NCBI GenBank assembly: GCA_937960645.1
Contig: CALGPJ010000058.1
Location: 1-54,823 of the forward strand
Direction of reading: 5' to 3'
DNA: 54,823 bases
Source of the DNA: an uncultured Spirochaetia bacterium
GTDB taxonomy: Bacteria > Spirochaetota > Spirochaetia > JABEVK01
Shown: positions 4,370 to 12,135 of the stretch, one piece after another
Layout of the letters: each line of letters begins with the position of its first letter
Numbering within the stretch: position 1 is the first letter of the stretch
Made by a program: the position numbers and the translations under genes
Notes under the pieces: model-generated
What the model was told of the DNA's origin: nothing
The model's input: the letters and a program-made list of their open reading frames with translations, nothing else
Databases searched by the model: none

Positions 4370-5639
4370 GATCGCGACCTGCAGTTTTTGCGGAAAGAAG
4401 GCCAACCAGGTCGCCCGAATGATCGGCGGACCTCGAGGGGTGAACATCTGCAACGAGTGCGTCGCCTTGTGCCAGAACCTCCTGGAAACAGAAAACCACG
4501 CGCCGGAGCTCGACATCGAACTTCCCCTTCCCCACGAGATGAAGGCCTATCTCGACCATTACGTGATTGGTCAGGAAGAAGCGAAAAAGGTCCTCAGCGT
4601 CGCGGTGTACAACCACTACAAGCGCATCAAGCAACGACAAAAGGGCCAATACCCGGATGTGGAACTCGACAAGAGCAACATCCTCCTCATCGGTCCCACG
4701 GGGACCGGCAAGACCCTGCTGGCCCGAACTTTGGCCAGGAGACTCAAGGTGCCCTTCGCCATCGCCGACGCCACCACCCTGACCGAGGCCGGTTATGTGG
4801 GTGAGGACGTCGAGAACATTCTTCTCAAACTGATTCAGGCTGCCGGAAACAACGTGGCCCACGCCGAGCGCGGCATCGTGTACATCGACGAAATCGACAA
4901 GATCGCCAAAAAAGGCGAGAATGTGAGCATCACCCGGGACGTCTCGGGGGAAGGGGTGCAGCAGGCCCTTCTCAAGATCATCGAGGGGACCATCGCGTCG
5001 GTACCACCCCAGGGTGGTCGCAAGCATCCCAATCAAGAGATGATCCGCATCGACACCACCGACATCCTCTTCATCTGCGGCGGCGCCTTCGTGGGTTTGG
5101 ACAAGATCATCGAGCGCCGCCTGACGTCCCAACCCATTGGTTTTGGTTCGGACCTCAAGCCGCGATCGACCCATTCCGTCTCCGAGCTTTTGAAGCAGGC
5201 CCAGCCGGACGATCTGATAAAATTCGGGCTCATTCCCGAATTCATCGGCCGGTTGCCCATTACCGTCGCCCTGAACGACCTGGATCGCGACGATCTGGTT
5301 CGGGTAGCCACCGAACCCCGAAACAGCATCATCCGACAGTACCAGGTCCTGTTCGAAATGGACAATTGTATCCTGGAATTCGAAAAAGACGCGGTCTACG
5401 CCATCGCCGAACTGGCGATCAAGCGCAAGACCGGGGCGAGGGGGATCCGTTCCATCGTGGAAGGCGCCATGAACGATCTCATGTACGAGATTCCGGCGAT
5501 GCCTAACCGAAAAAAAGTCATCATGACCAAAGAGGTGTTTTTGGAAGACGCCGAGCCGGTGATCATCTCGGATCCTCGAGAGATCGATCGGCCCTGGGTC
5601 AGGGAACTCTATGATTTTTCAGCGAAAGACTCGGCCTAA
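4356..5639 (+). CDS. clpX: ATP-dependent Clp protease ATPase subunit ClpX
   Basis: AAA+ unfoldase that recognises, unfolds and feeds substrates to ClpP. I chose ATG 4356 because the protein then starts with the family's zinc-binding domain (CSFC and CNEC at the N terminus). Length is 427 aa, close to E. coli ClpX. Walker A GPTGTGKT is at about 113-120, the pore motif GYVG follows, Walker B is near YIDEID (176-181), and the IGF loop that docks on ClpP is at 261-263. It overlaps clpP by 14 bases at its start and lon by 29 bases at its end. A longer open frame upstream of 4356 lies inside clpP and is not needed. Confidence 0.97.
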
Positions 5640-8019: not shown

Positions 8020-8941
8020 TCTCTCCTTCGTCGAACTGCGTTACCTTCTGGACCTGAGCCACCGGGTCAAGGCCCAACGGCGCCGCCGAGAGGCCACCAG
8101 CCGCTTCCGGGGACTGAGCTTAGGGCTCCTCTTCGAAAAACCCAGCACCCGAACCCGAAGTGCCTTCGAGACTGCCTTTGGCGAGGAGGGGGGGCACCCC
8201 TGTTTTCTCAGTCCCAAGGACATTCAGTTGGGAGCCAAGGAAACCATCGAGGACACGGCCCGAGTTCTGGGCCGCATGTTCGATGGCATCATGTTCCGGG
8301 GATTTCGGCAAGATTCGGTCGAAGCCCTGGCCCGATACTCCGGTGTTCCCGTGTACAACGGCTTGACCGACGACTACCACCCGATGCAGGTTTTGGCGGA
8401 TCTCATGACCCTCGAGGAAAACTGGGGCCAGCTGGAAGGGCGTAAGCTGGTTTATGCCGGGGATGCCCGCAACAACATGGCCAACACCCTGATCTTCGGC
8501 TGCGCCATGGTGGGCATCGAGCTCGTCCTTGCCTGTCCCGAAGAGCTCAGTCCCGACGAGCGCATCGTTCAGGAAAGCCGCAATTATCTTTTGGACGACA
8601 CTCCTGCCCTCGTCATCGAGCGAAATCTCCAAACCGCTTTGCGGGGGGCGGATGCTGTCTACACCGACGTCTGGGCCAGCATGGGAGAAGAAGACAGGCT
8701 GCAGGAACGATTGGCGCTCCTGAGACCCTATCAAATCAACGCCGAAACTCTCTCCTGGACCCAAAAAAACGACACCCTGTTCCTCCACTGCCTCCCTGCT
8801 GTGCGTGGCAACGAAGTTACCGCCGAGGTGCTCGAAGGCCCCAACAGCAGGGTCTGGGACCAGAGTGAAAACCGCAAACATACGACCAAGGCGGTGCTTT
8901 TGGCCACCTTGCCCCTGTTCGAAAAAACGCTTGATCCCTGA
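7976..8941 (+). CDS. argF: Ornithine carbamoyltransferase
   Basis: Joins carbamoyl phosphate to ornithine to make citrulline, in arginine synthesis or, working backwards, in arginine fermentation. The carbamoyl-phosphate motif STRTR is at 57-61, HPMQ at 135-138 and the ornithine-side motif HCLP at 271-274. Length is 321 aa, normal for the family. I chose ATG 7976 since AAGGAGGG sits five bases upstream; an alternative in-frame start at 7952 lacks this. It overlaps lon by 44 bases, an unusual pairing. No other arginine genes are nearby, so anabolic and catabolic roles cannot be separated. Confidence 0.95.
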   Translation: MNSPLLGRSLLKLHDLSFVELRYLLDLSHRVKAQRRRREATSRFRGLSLGLLFEKPSTRTRSAFETAFGEEGGHPCFLSPKDIQLGAKETIEDTARVLGRMFDGIMFRGFRQDSVEALARYSGVPVYNGLTDDYHPMQVLADLMTLEENWGQLEGRKLVYAGDARNNMANTLIFGCAMVGIELVLACPEELSPDERIVQESRNYLLDDTPALVIERNLQTALRGADAVYTDVWASMGEEDRLQERLALLRPYQINAETLSWTQKNDTLFLHCLPAVRGNEVTAEVLEGPNSRVWDQSENRKHTTKAVLLATLPLFEKTLDP

Positions 8942-8975
8942 GAGATGCCGATTTATACTCACGAAGGAGGTTCGC

Positions 8976-9437
8976 ATGAAACACCTAGTTCCCCTGATAC
9001 TGGCCCTGTTGATTTTAGGCCAGGGAATTTATGCTCAGGCCGCCGGAAGTCCCTCGAATCCGCGTCCCAACCTGGTGGTCTCGCCCTACTATGTCAAAAA
9101 CGTGTTCCTGAACCGCATCGTCAGCACCGCCCGAGGTTACCGCATCGAGTATTTCAACGCGCGCATGGAGCCCAAGGCCATCCATGTGCCCATCGAATGG
9201 TTTTCCCGCCAAAACCAGTACGGCCGCCTCGAGGACGGGGGGGTGAAGGCAGAAATACTTTTTGCGACCGACGCGGCCTATCCCTACGTGAGCATTTTCT
9301 GGAAGGACGGAAAGTTTTCACACCTCAGAATCCACGCCCAGGAAAGTTTCAATCACTCTTCCTGGGGAGTGCTTCGGCCTCAGACCAACATCGATGATCG
9401 GTTCAAACCTGACGCCGAGCTCGAGTTTGAGTTTTAA
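8976..9437 (+). CDS. Small predicted secreted protein of unknown function
   Basis: I do not recognise a family. The 153-aa product begins with a basic residue, a hydrophobic core (about residues 4-17) and a likely signal peptidase site near AQAAG, so export to the periplasm or beyond is probable. The mature part is rich in aromatic and charged residues, with short alternating stretches that suggest a beta fold. It has no lipobox, cysteine or transmembrane helix after the signal. ATG 8976 follows an excellent GAAGGAGG. It sits 34 bases after argF and its 3' end overlaps the next gene by 44 bases. Confidence 0.8.
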   Translation: MKHLVPLILALLILGQGIYAQAAGSPSNPRPNLVVSPYYVKNVFLNRIVSTARGYRIEYFNARMEPKAIHVPIEWFSRQNQYGRLEDGGVKAEILFATDAAYPYVSIFWKDGKFSHLRIHAQESFNHSSWGVLRPQTNIDDRFKPDAELEFEF

Positions 9438-10398
9438 GGGGATCATCCCGCCAGGGGTACTCGATTTTTTAAAAAATCCCGACACCTTTCTGGTGGTGGG
9501 GCATTCCGAGCCGGATGCCGACTGTTTGGGATCGCAGATCGCTCTGGCCCATGTGGTCCAGTCTTTGGGCGGACGGGCGGTCCTTGCTTCGGCCGGGCCC
9601 TTCCTGCGGCCCGAAATCAAGCCCTGGGAGTCGCTGTTTCTCGCGGATCCGGATGCCTGTCCCCGTGTCGATCGGGCGGTGGTGCTGGATTGCTCGAGTC
9701 CCTCCCGCGCAGGGCCCTGGCAGGCAAAGATGACGGGGCTTCCTGTTCTGGTCATCGACCACCACGCCGGCACCGACCGCTGTGGGGAAGTGGATTACAT
9801 CGACCCGGAAGCCCCCAGTACCGCCCTGCTCGTTTTTCGAATCTACGAGGCTCTGGGACTTCCTCTGACACCGGCCGTCGCCTACAGCCTGATGCTCGCT
9901 TCGTGCACCGATACAGGGTTCTTCCGACACCTGGGTCCCGCACAGGGTGAAACACTGCGAATGTGCGCCCAATTTTCGGACCTCGGCGTCAGCCTCCAGG
10001 ACATCCATGCGCTCATGACCGGTGGCCAGCTTGCAACCAATTTGCGGCTTCTCGGAAATCTTCTGGGACGTCTGCAGCTGCACTACGAGGGCAGACTCGC
10101 TTATACCTTCGAGGAAGAGGGGGAGCGCGAAAGCCTGCAGGCATCGAACCGCCCCTCGGACCTTCTCTACCAGCTGATATTCACCATCGATTCGGTGGAG
10201 ATGGCCGTGGTACTACGGACCGAAAACGGGGCGACGATCGGCGGACTACGCAGCCGCCGGACGATCGATTGTGCCCAAATCGCCTCGGGACTGGGCGGAG
10301 GGGGGCACGTTCGGGCCAGCGGTTTTCGAACCGAGAAGCCACTCGATCAGGTCAAAACGTTCATTTTTGCTGAGTTCGAGAGGGCACTCGGCGGTTGA
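9394..10398 (+). CDS. DHH-family phosphoesterase (NrnA-like)
   Basis: Likely a metal-dependent phosphoesterase that degrades short oligoribonucleotides and/or dephosphorylates pAp. Metal-site motifs are HSEPDAD (37-43), Asp99, DHH (122-124) and TDTGFFR (Asp173). The C-terminal DHHA1 domain ends in GGGHVRASGFR, the usual substrate-binding signature. Length of 334 aa matches NrnA. The start is uncertain: ATG 9394 has no good Shine-Dalgarno, and TTG 9427 inside the end of the previous gene is an alternative that removes 11 residues. Distinguishing nano-RNase from cyclic dinucleotide hydrolase activity is not possible from sequence alone. Confidence 0.9.
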   Translation: MIGSNLTPSSSLSFKGIIPPGVLDFLKNPDTFLVVGHSEPDADCLGSQIALAHVVQSLGGRAVLASAGPFLRPEIKPWESLFLADPDACPRVDRAVVLDCSSPSRAGPWQAKMTGLPVLVIDHHAGTDRCGEVDYIDPEAPSTALLVFRIYEALGLPLTPAVAYSLMLASCTDTGFFRHLGPAQGETLRMCAQFSDLGVSLQDIHALMTGGQLATNLRLLGNLLGRLQLHYEGRLAYTFEEEGERESLQASNRPSDLLYQLIFTIDSVEMAVVLRTENGATIGGLRSRRTIDCAQIASGLGGGGHVRASGFRTEKPLDQVKTFIFAEFERALGG

Positions 10399-10405
10399 TG
10401 CCCCT

Positions 10406-11191
10406 TCAGGGAAGGTCGTGGACCTCGATGTGCAAACGAGTCAGCACCCGGCCCATTTCGTCTCGGATGACCAGTCCGTATGTCCCAGCTTCTTCCAGTT
10501 TTCCCGTTTCCAGCACGGTGGATTTGCCGTGGACCAGGGTCTGCCGCATTCGATAAAGGATTCTCATCGGGTAGGGGTAAGTTCCTCTAAAAAATAGGAT
10601 CTCGACTTCCCCGTCCACCGTTGGAACGACGATAAAAGCGGGCGCCACGCCTGACTTTGCCAAACTGGGGCGCTGATACATCTGAAGACTCGGTCCGACC
10701 TCGACACCGAGGTAGGCCCTGGGTTCCGATACCTCTCCAGAGAAGTCGGTCTGGAAGGGGTCCAGCACCCCAACGATGCGGCCCTTCAATCCGGGTTGGC
10801 TCAGGGACACGATTTCGGTTCCCTGCAGATTTTCCGGGCTGGACAAAATCACCCTATCCCTGTCGAGGAAGATACCGATTTCGGCTGGCACACCCCCAAC
10901 CTCGAAGAACACCAGATCGCCCGGCTGGGCCCGGTCCAGGGAATTCAAGTCCCTTGCCGTGCCCAGGACTCGGACATCGCCCGGAATGAAGCGGCCCATC
11001 ACGCGTGAAAAGCAGGTCTGGACCAGGCGCAGAGAGTCGATGCCGTAGCGCGAATGGCCACCGTGGACGAAGGGAACTCCCAAATACGTGAGAGCCAGCT
11101 GAAGAAATTGTTCCCGGTAGTCTGCAGGGATATTTTGGGGTTGCGCAAAAAGCATCGAGGCAGTGGAGACAGCCAACAGCCAGCGGGCCAT
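10406..11191 (-). CDS. NlpC/P60-like secreted protein with lost catalytic residues
   Basis: NlpC/P60 proteins are usually cysteine peptidases that cut peptidoglycan stem peptides. This 261-aa protein has a short N-terminal signal-like segment, then the NlpC/P60 landmarks YLGVPFVHGG, RYGIDSLRLVQ and PGDLVFF. The catalytic Cys of the usual GxDCSG is Ser53 here. The His of the usual HVGIY is Glu104, and the later IHA position reads ILS. The fold is therefore probably kept without peptidase chemistry. The C-terminal 100 residues look like a beta-rich domain. It ends 7 bases from the convergent DHH gene and is followed upstream by a VTT membrane protein on the same strand. It may be a binding or regulatory pseudoenzyme. 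Confidence 0.75.
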   Translation of the reverse strand: MARWLLAVSTASMLFAQPQNIPADYREQFLQLALTYLGVPFVHGGHSRYGIDSLRLVQTCFSRVMGRFIPGDVRVLGTARDLNSLDRAQPGDLVFFEVGGVPAEIGIFLDRDRVILSSPENLQGTEIVSLSQPGLKGRIVGVLDPFQTDFSGEVSEPRAYLGVEVGPSLQMYQRPSLAKSGVAPAFIVVPTVDGEVEILFFRGTYPYPMRILYRMRQTLVHGKSTVLETGKLEEAGTYGLVIRDEMGRVLTRLHIEVHDLP

Positions 11192-11239: not shown

Positions 11240-11839
11240 TTAATTCGAAGACAGTCGAAAAAATAACCCCGTGATGATGAAATACATCACGAAAATTCTG
11301 GGAATGCGGAAGAGGGATGCCAGGATGTAAGTGGGGAAGGGAACCTTCATCAGTCCGGCGATCCAACTGACCGTTGAATACGGCACTGGTGACACGGCGG
11401 CGATGACGACGGCCCAAAAGCCATATTTCTTGATGAGGGTCTCCCCCTTGGCCCTGTAGTATTCCACCATGCGGTGAACAAATTTGATTTTGTCAAAAAA
11501 ATGACCGATGGCCCAACCCGTGCAGCCGCCGAGGATGGAGGCCAAACTCATCATGGAGAGGATCCACACCGCGTTGAGACCTTCCTGTGCGAGGAAGGGA
11601 AAGGTGAGGTCGATGCTACCCGGAACGATCAGGGCGTCGGTGATGTAGGCAAAGGCAAAAAATCCCCAGGTTCCCAGGTTCTGGACGAACCATTTTCCGA
11701 AGGCTTCGATTTGGTCGTTGAAGATGATCATGAGGGAAAGGGCGATGACGGTGGTCGCTGCCAGGGTGATTGCGGTTTGGATCAAAATGGTCCTGGGATT
11801 CAATTCTACCGTCGAAGCATTCTTGGGATGTTCGCTCAT
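11240..11839 (-). CDS. VTT-domain (DedA/YqaA-like) membrane protein
   Basis: Integral membrane protein of about 199 aa. It has an N-terminal transmembrane helix (about residues 20-43), a re-entrant-type region around FFAFAYITDALIVPGS, a Gly-rich helix LASILGGCTGWAIGHFF, and a second half with the family pattern KYGFWAVVIAAVSPVPYS before a last helix. VTT/DedA proteins are linked to lipid scrambling or recycling of undecaprenyl phosphate; which applies here is unknown. I chose ATG 11839, which gives MSEHPK; a GTG at 11854 would add five residues. Neither has a clear Shine-Dalgarno. Confidence 0.85.
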   Translation of the reverse strand: MSEHPKNASTVELNPRTILIQTAITLAATTVIALSLMIIFNDQIEAFGKWFVQNLGTWGFFAFAYITDALIVPGSIDLTFPFLAQEGLNAVWILSMMSLASILGGCTGWAIGHFFDKIKFVHRMVEYYRAKGETLIKKYGFWAVVIAAVSPVPYSTVSWIAGLMKVPFPTYILASLFRIPRIFVMYFIITGLFFRLSSN

Positions 11840-11892
11840 GATTTTAATATACACAATTCATCGGGACTTTCTATCCCTGCCGAGCGAGCACC

Positions 11893-12135
11893 TCATCCCA
11901 GAAACTCTTCCAGCTCTTCCACACTGACCTGCTCCAACAGGTAATAGCGCTCTTCGCCGTTACGAGTTTCGCGGGTGCGCTGTCCGACCACACGGTAGAC
12001 GATTTGCCGGGCCGTGGTCAGGGGCAGGGGGAGCGGCTCTCCATTCAGGCCCACCAAACTCATGAGGGTCAGGGGATGGGAGATTTCCTGGACATCTCCC
12101 TCCGGATAGACGATGTAATGTTCGGTCCAGCGCAT
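11893..12135 (-). CDS. Small protein of unknown function
   Basis: An 80-aa product with no family that I recognise. It has no signal peptide, membrane helix or cysteine. The C-terminal third is acidic (VSVEELEEFLG). A GGAG lies 11 bases before the ATG, a wide but usable spacing. It is the first gene of the minus-strand group and faces mraZ across the divergent promoter region, with a candidate -10 TATAGT about 55 bases upstream. Support is codon pattern and context only. Confidence 0.6.
   Translation of the reverse strand: MRWTEHYIVYPEGDVQEISHPLTLMSLVGLNGEPLPLPLTTARQIVYRVVGQRTRETRNGEERYYLLEQVSVEELEEFLG

Follow-up and report, generated by a model that had tools for sequence, protein, structure and literature searches.

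A probably exported and catalytically dead NlpC/P60 family protein from an uncultured Spirochaetia bacterium, with all three catalytic positions replaced

A gene in a 54,823-nucleotide stretch of DNA from an uncultured Spirochaetia bacterium (contig CALGPJ010000058.1 of assembly GCA_937960645.1; the whole of this stretch is referred to here as the window) encodes a two-domain protein of the NlpC/P60 family in which all three catalytic positions are replaced, the residues present being Ser53, Glu104 and Leu116. A non-enzymatic job is most likely for this protein. We favour, with a probability of roughly 0.55, the reading that it is a probably exported and catalytically dead NlpC/P60 protein whose ancestor was an active, MepS-like endopeptidase of peptidoglycan that carried a C-terminal beta domain; the C-terminal domain would be functional and the dead domain would serve as a scaffold.

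The gene is an open, intact reading frame of 261 codons (Table 1), starting two codons past an in-frame stop and ending 8 bases from a convergent DHH gene. Its codon score is 0.148 per codon in frame, whereas none of the other five frames exceeds 0.011. Nine neighbouring genes score 0.126–0.285, so the composition resembles that of its neighbours. No Shine-Dalgarno-like sequence was seen by eye ahead of the ATG. Sequencing error or a frameshift as the source of the changes can be ruled out, because these are in frame, lie at several separate places and occur in a frame that is coding-like. A preliminary description made from the DNA alone had proposed relaxed or altered function rather than error, and this is supported. 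The same description had pointed to a signal-like N terminus and to secretion. Export is probable, a putative signal peptide being suggested by the hydropathy of a short hydrophobic N terminus.

Table 1. Features of the gene, of its protein and of the two adjoining genes, in window coordinates
Feature	Position	Strand	Basis
Whole gene, 261 aa, NlpC/P60 pseudoenzyme + C-terminal beta domain	10406..11191	-	Intact ORF; PF00877 41.2 bits; codon score
Short hydrophobic N terminus (residues 1-17), signal-peptide-like	11141..11191	-	Hydropathy only
NlpC/P60 domain (residues 21-150)	10742..11131	-	AF2 pLDDT block means 88-98; PDB match 7cfl
Ser53 (TCT), catalytic Cys column	11033..11035	-	C in 148/150 relatives among matches listed
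Glu104 (GAA), catalytic His column	10880..10882	-	H in 150/150 relatives among matches listed
Leu116 (TTG), third catalytic column	10844..10846	-	H/S/N/Q in 150/150 relatives among matches listed
C-terminal beta-rich domain (residues 156-258), no Pfam family	10418..10726	-	27-30% identity to same-genus homologue's C-terminal part; low-confidence all-beta model
Upstream neighbour, VTT-domain membrane protein (context)	11240..11854	-	PF09335, 59.5 bits
Convergent neighbour, DHH/DHHA1 phosphoesterase (context)	9394..10398	+	PF01368, 60.3 bits

Membership of the NlpC/P60 family is supported at the level of both sequence and predicted structure. The Pfam family PF00877 (NLPC_P60) matches residues 38–142 above its cut-off of 23 bits, and an AF2 model built from 36 sequences is confident across residues 21–150. 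PDB entries of the NlpC/P60 family head the Foldseek and VIA-align matches to this model, the best being 7cfl (Z 19.8, 122 residues aligned, rmsd 1.7), with YkfC (3h41) at Z 18.4 and the inactive RipD (4lj1) at Z 16.7 (115 residues, rmsd 1.7); solved MepS chains, which represent endopeptidases of the MepS/Spr type, share the fold and match as well. The predicted model thus has the papain-like NlpC/P60 fold, and the fold landmarks that had been read from the sequence are borne out. The C-terminal domain, described earlier as an extra beta-rich part, is beta-rich in both of its models, although at low confidence (mean pLDDT 53.0 for the single-sequence model). A Pfam search with this domain gave no match, and Foldseek on the low-confidence model returned nothing reliable (best E 0.29). 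The C-terminal piece of a single relative (L162/L019, one of five pieces) matched DUF2914 below the cut-off, with an E value of 0.013. This pairing of an NlpC/P60 domain with a C-terminal beta domain is shared by several families within the class.

Relatives were collected from the class, of which 394 genomes were searched with a 12-row profile and 153 gave matches. The class is probably Spirochaetia, given that the named loci closest to its proteins are from Breznakiella (62%) and Treponema (58%), whereas four other named loci reached 49% at most. The matches listed, together with a second domain from a genome of the same genus (G001), make up 151 loci, or 150 domains once the protein's own copy is set aside; some proteins contribute two domains. 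Among these the first catalytic column is Cys in 148, Asp in one and Ala in one, the second is His in all 150 and the third is His in 119, Ser in 17, Asn in seven and Gln in seven. A second set, the best 80 of 235 named loci, was picked for similarity without regard to the catalytic residues, and here 79 of the 80 have both Cys and His. The alignment thus confirms the earlier observation that all three positions have changed in the window protein. Because Ser53, Glu104 and Leu116 stand in place of the triad of Cys, His and His or another polar residue, the protein is a member of the fold family but, it appears, not one of its active peptidases.

The nearest homologue, on contig C442 of the same-genus genome G001, retains Cys, His and His. 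The two proteins are 29–30% identical from end to end, C-terminal domain included, and align over their full length in BLASTP with an E value of 2e-23. A two-domain profile matches the window protein at positions 10–259 of its 261 residues with 227 bits, the profile containing the window protein's own row. Of the NCBIfam models, PRK10838 (MepS/Spr) matches the same-genus homologue best, at 91 bits and below its cut-off of 186. Spr (MepS) has a Cys-His-His triad, which the window protein does not.

Two of the 150 class relatives among the matches listed lack the Cys, each having lost it independently. One (L165/L038, genome G140) is a Cys-to-Asp pseudoenzyme of the same two-domain architecture on a long branch; it differs from the window protein in keeping both His residues and in belonging to another family. 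The other (L037/L301, genome G288) is a tandem NlpC/P60 protein with Ala at the Cys column of its second domain. Loss of all three residues is rare but not unique, because a locus from a Burkholderiales MAG (L097, positions 4995–5411 of JAJFBE010000008.1) has Asp, Tyr and Gln at the catalytic columns. This loss too is independent; unlike the window protein, the Burkholderiales protein keeps the Tyr column, is much longer (a 700-codon open frame) and comes from an unrelated lineage.

Could the new residues themselves form an active site? Ser53 and Glu104 do occupy the nucleophile and base columns, but the third position is Leu, the conserved Tyr is gone, a Gly-to-Arg change (G55R) adjoins the nucleophile and the domain's two His residues, H43 and H46, both lie away from the His column. 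The preliminary description had also called for a survey of orthologues for a conserved Ser/Glu pair; none was found among the 150 domains of the matches listed or in the best 80 of 235 named loci, and the same-genus homologue keeps Cys, His and His. An enzyme with a new Ser53/Glu104 site is consequently very improbable. An alternative triad built on Cys60 and another His, which had been named as grounds for rejecting the pseudoenzyme reading, is likewise out. Cys60 is the protein's single Cys and sits in a helix column that is mostly Val, Leu, Ala, Ser, Ile or Thr and is Cys in four of 150 relatives among the matches listed.

The losses extend to the residues that hold the substrate. Conserved columns, defined as those in which at least 70% of relatives share a single residue, number 34, and the window protein retains 15 of them, the lowest fraction of the 151 sequences among the matches listed. 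Those retained are mostly structural (G38, P40, G44, P70, PGDL, FF and G124) together with D52, whilst Y41, C53, S54, G55, R71, H104 and H116 are among those lost. In the YkfC structure Tyr226, Asp237 and Ser239 are described as holding gamma-D-Glu, with Asp237 and Arg255 forming an active-site network (PMC2954226). Matched by spacing around the DCS motif, Tyr226, Asp237 and Ser239 correspond to F41, D52 and L54 of the window protein, so only the Asp is kept and the Tyr/Asp/Ser set that contacts gamma-D-Glu is incomplete (Y41F, S54L); Arg255 probably corresponds to G71, judging from a conserved Pro-Arg. As these peptide-holding residues have been lost (R71G with the same reservation), wall binding through the old groove seems unlikely, and the cell-wall binding proposed earlier does not hold up for the NlpC/P60 domain.

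The loss of these contacts bears directly on the closest known parallel, RipD (Rv1566c) of Mycobacterium tuberculosis (4jxb, 4lj1), which likewise combines an NlpC/P60 fold, changes at three triad positions and an extra C-terminal part. RipD, whose lost triad now reads Ala83-Ser132-Glu144, is reported to bind peptidoglycan (PMC12067865), and its structure is among those that match our model. By analogy, the dead groove of the window protein could bind stem peptides without cutting them. The two proteins differ, however, in their replacements (Ala-Ser-Glu against Ser-Glu-Leu) and in their C-terminal parts (pentapeptide repeats against a beta domain), and the NCBIfam model for inactive RipD, NF033743, gives 13 bits against a cut-off of 215. 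Moreover, unlike RipD, a reported peptidoglycan binder, the window protein retains only Asp237 (as D52) of the residues that contact the stem peptide in YkfC. We regard a binder of the RipD type as rather improbable.

The evolutionary rates of the two domains were compared on a tree of 20 full-length members, the topology being fixed for the test of each domain. None of the 20 has a longer terminal branch than the window protein (3.44, compared with 1.39 for its sister and a median of 1.13), although its join to the same-genus relative has low support (37/0); the branch of the Cys-to-Asp member, at 2.32, is also long. On the fixed topology the ratio of the window to the sister terminal branch is 3.01 in the NlpC/P60 domain, or 2.29 when eight active-site columns are taken out; for the C-terminal domain it is 1.22, and the window protein there ranks eighth of 20. 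The ratio of window to median was bigger in the NlpC/P60 domain than in the C-terminal domain in all 100 paired column bootstrap replicates, with 5–95% ranges of 2.63–6.78 and 0.87–2.18, respectively; the window-to-sister ratio was less sharp (1.50–4.00 versus 0.59–3.13). Mean pairwise identities agree: in the NlpC/P60 domain the window protein has the lowest value of the 20 (27.9%, the next being 35.1), and in the C-terminal domain its 16.0% lies within the 15.1–22.7 spanned by the other 19. Only the NlpC/P60 domain, then, has sped up. The dead form is carried by one species only, and the ordinary rate of the C-terminal domain says little for a function, since every member varies greatly there (the terminal branches have a median of 0.88 per site).

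The long branch speaks for another possibility, that the gene is on its way out, in a lineage that is losing NlpC/P60 activity, and is simply still unbroken by stops. In another genus of the same family (g2) PF00877 has no match in any of three genomes, and the activity is therefore dispensable in the lineage. At an E value of no more than 0.001, the genome that encodes the window protein, 99.34% complete, has no other PF00877 match. Among nine proteins compared with G001 this one is conserved least (30% identity, as against 44–82% for the other eight). The 261-codon frame has nevertheless stayed unbroken despite the very long branch, with neighbour-like codon composition and the fold landmarks retained, and loss of the whole gene should speed both domains rather than one. 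Decay of this kind is, in our judgement, a serious but unlikely explanation.

The preliminary description had also drawn attention to the gene's position, facing the division cluster. Upstream on the same strand lie the VTT-domain gene and an 80-codon gene; the division cluster, which begins with mraZ, is on the opposite strand. In G001, however, the homologue, the VTT gene, the DHH gene and mraZ are on four separate contigs; the homologue adjoins PIN-like and caspase-like genes, and the VTT gene adjoins rpsT-like and HU-like genes and a transposase-like fragment (all names read from translations, not database matches). No match to the caspase-like neighbour was found in the window's own genome, and the comparison with G001 revealed no conserved neighbourhood. 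Because the homologue and the VTT gene have other neighbours there, location says little about function, and the hint of a link to division is not supported.

Some of the surrounding gene order is shared between the two genomes. The order lon-argF-DUF-DHH in G001 is colinear with the window, the contig ending 77 bases past the DHH gene, and includes a counterpart (46% identical) of a protein of ~160 residues, with no Pfam family, encoded at 8934–9437 (+) between the argF-like and DHH genes. The 80-codon gene (11893–12135, −) belongs to no confident family but is 64.5% identical to a G001 gene (L145, 516–746) in the same place upstream of mraZ; its small product is thus conserved, and the gene diverges from the division cluster. 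Two contig ends of G001 (L144, 1–1000, and L145, 1–500) carry the same short translated stretch, in one case with a transposase-like frame, which suggests that a mobile element breaks that assembly.

Under the reading we prefer, that of a dead NlpC/P60 domain kept as a scaffold, the ancestor would have been an active MepS-like endopeptidase with a C-terminal beta domain. Its descendant would no longer cut or grip stem peptides; the function still under selection would be carried by the C-terminal domain through binding of an envelope partner, and the NlpC/P60 domain would persist as a folded support. The partner is a guess, an M23 hydrolase being one example. The genome encodes five M23 domains and one Amidase_3, and these proteins are possible partners or replacements. 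A functional model is provided by degenerate LytM (M23) regulators of the DipM type, in which a dead peptidoglycan hydrolase domain is described as regulating live hydrolases (PMC10336132), although these are of another fold and family. That the NlpC/P60 domain has been freed from peptidoglycan and retained as a scaffold, with the C-terminal domain selected for a task such as regulating M23 hydrolases, so that the protein would be the NlpC/P60 counterpart of those regulators, is a tentative proposal only.

Pseudoenzymes of the NlpC/P60 family are rare but known, as RipD illustrates, and the window protein adds another. Around 1% of 2599 NlpC/P60 sequences lacked the Cys/His dyad (PMC2954226). 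RipD was the only non-catalytic NlpC/P60 protein found in our literature search, in which the wording of one query may miss 'NlpC/P60', and a search for NlpC with pseudoenzyme found nothing. What is worth keeping from the present case is the rate change limited to one domain, together with the loss of substrate contacts. A near-complete genome here has a single NlpC/P60 protein, which is dead, and the rate has changed in the dead domain alone, so that the roles of the two domains can be separated. The case also makes it possible to test whether dead NlpC/P60 proteins are regulators in the manner of dead LytM proteins.
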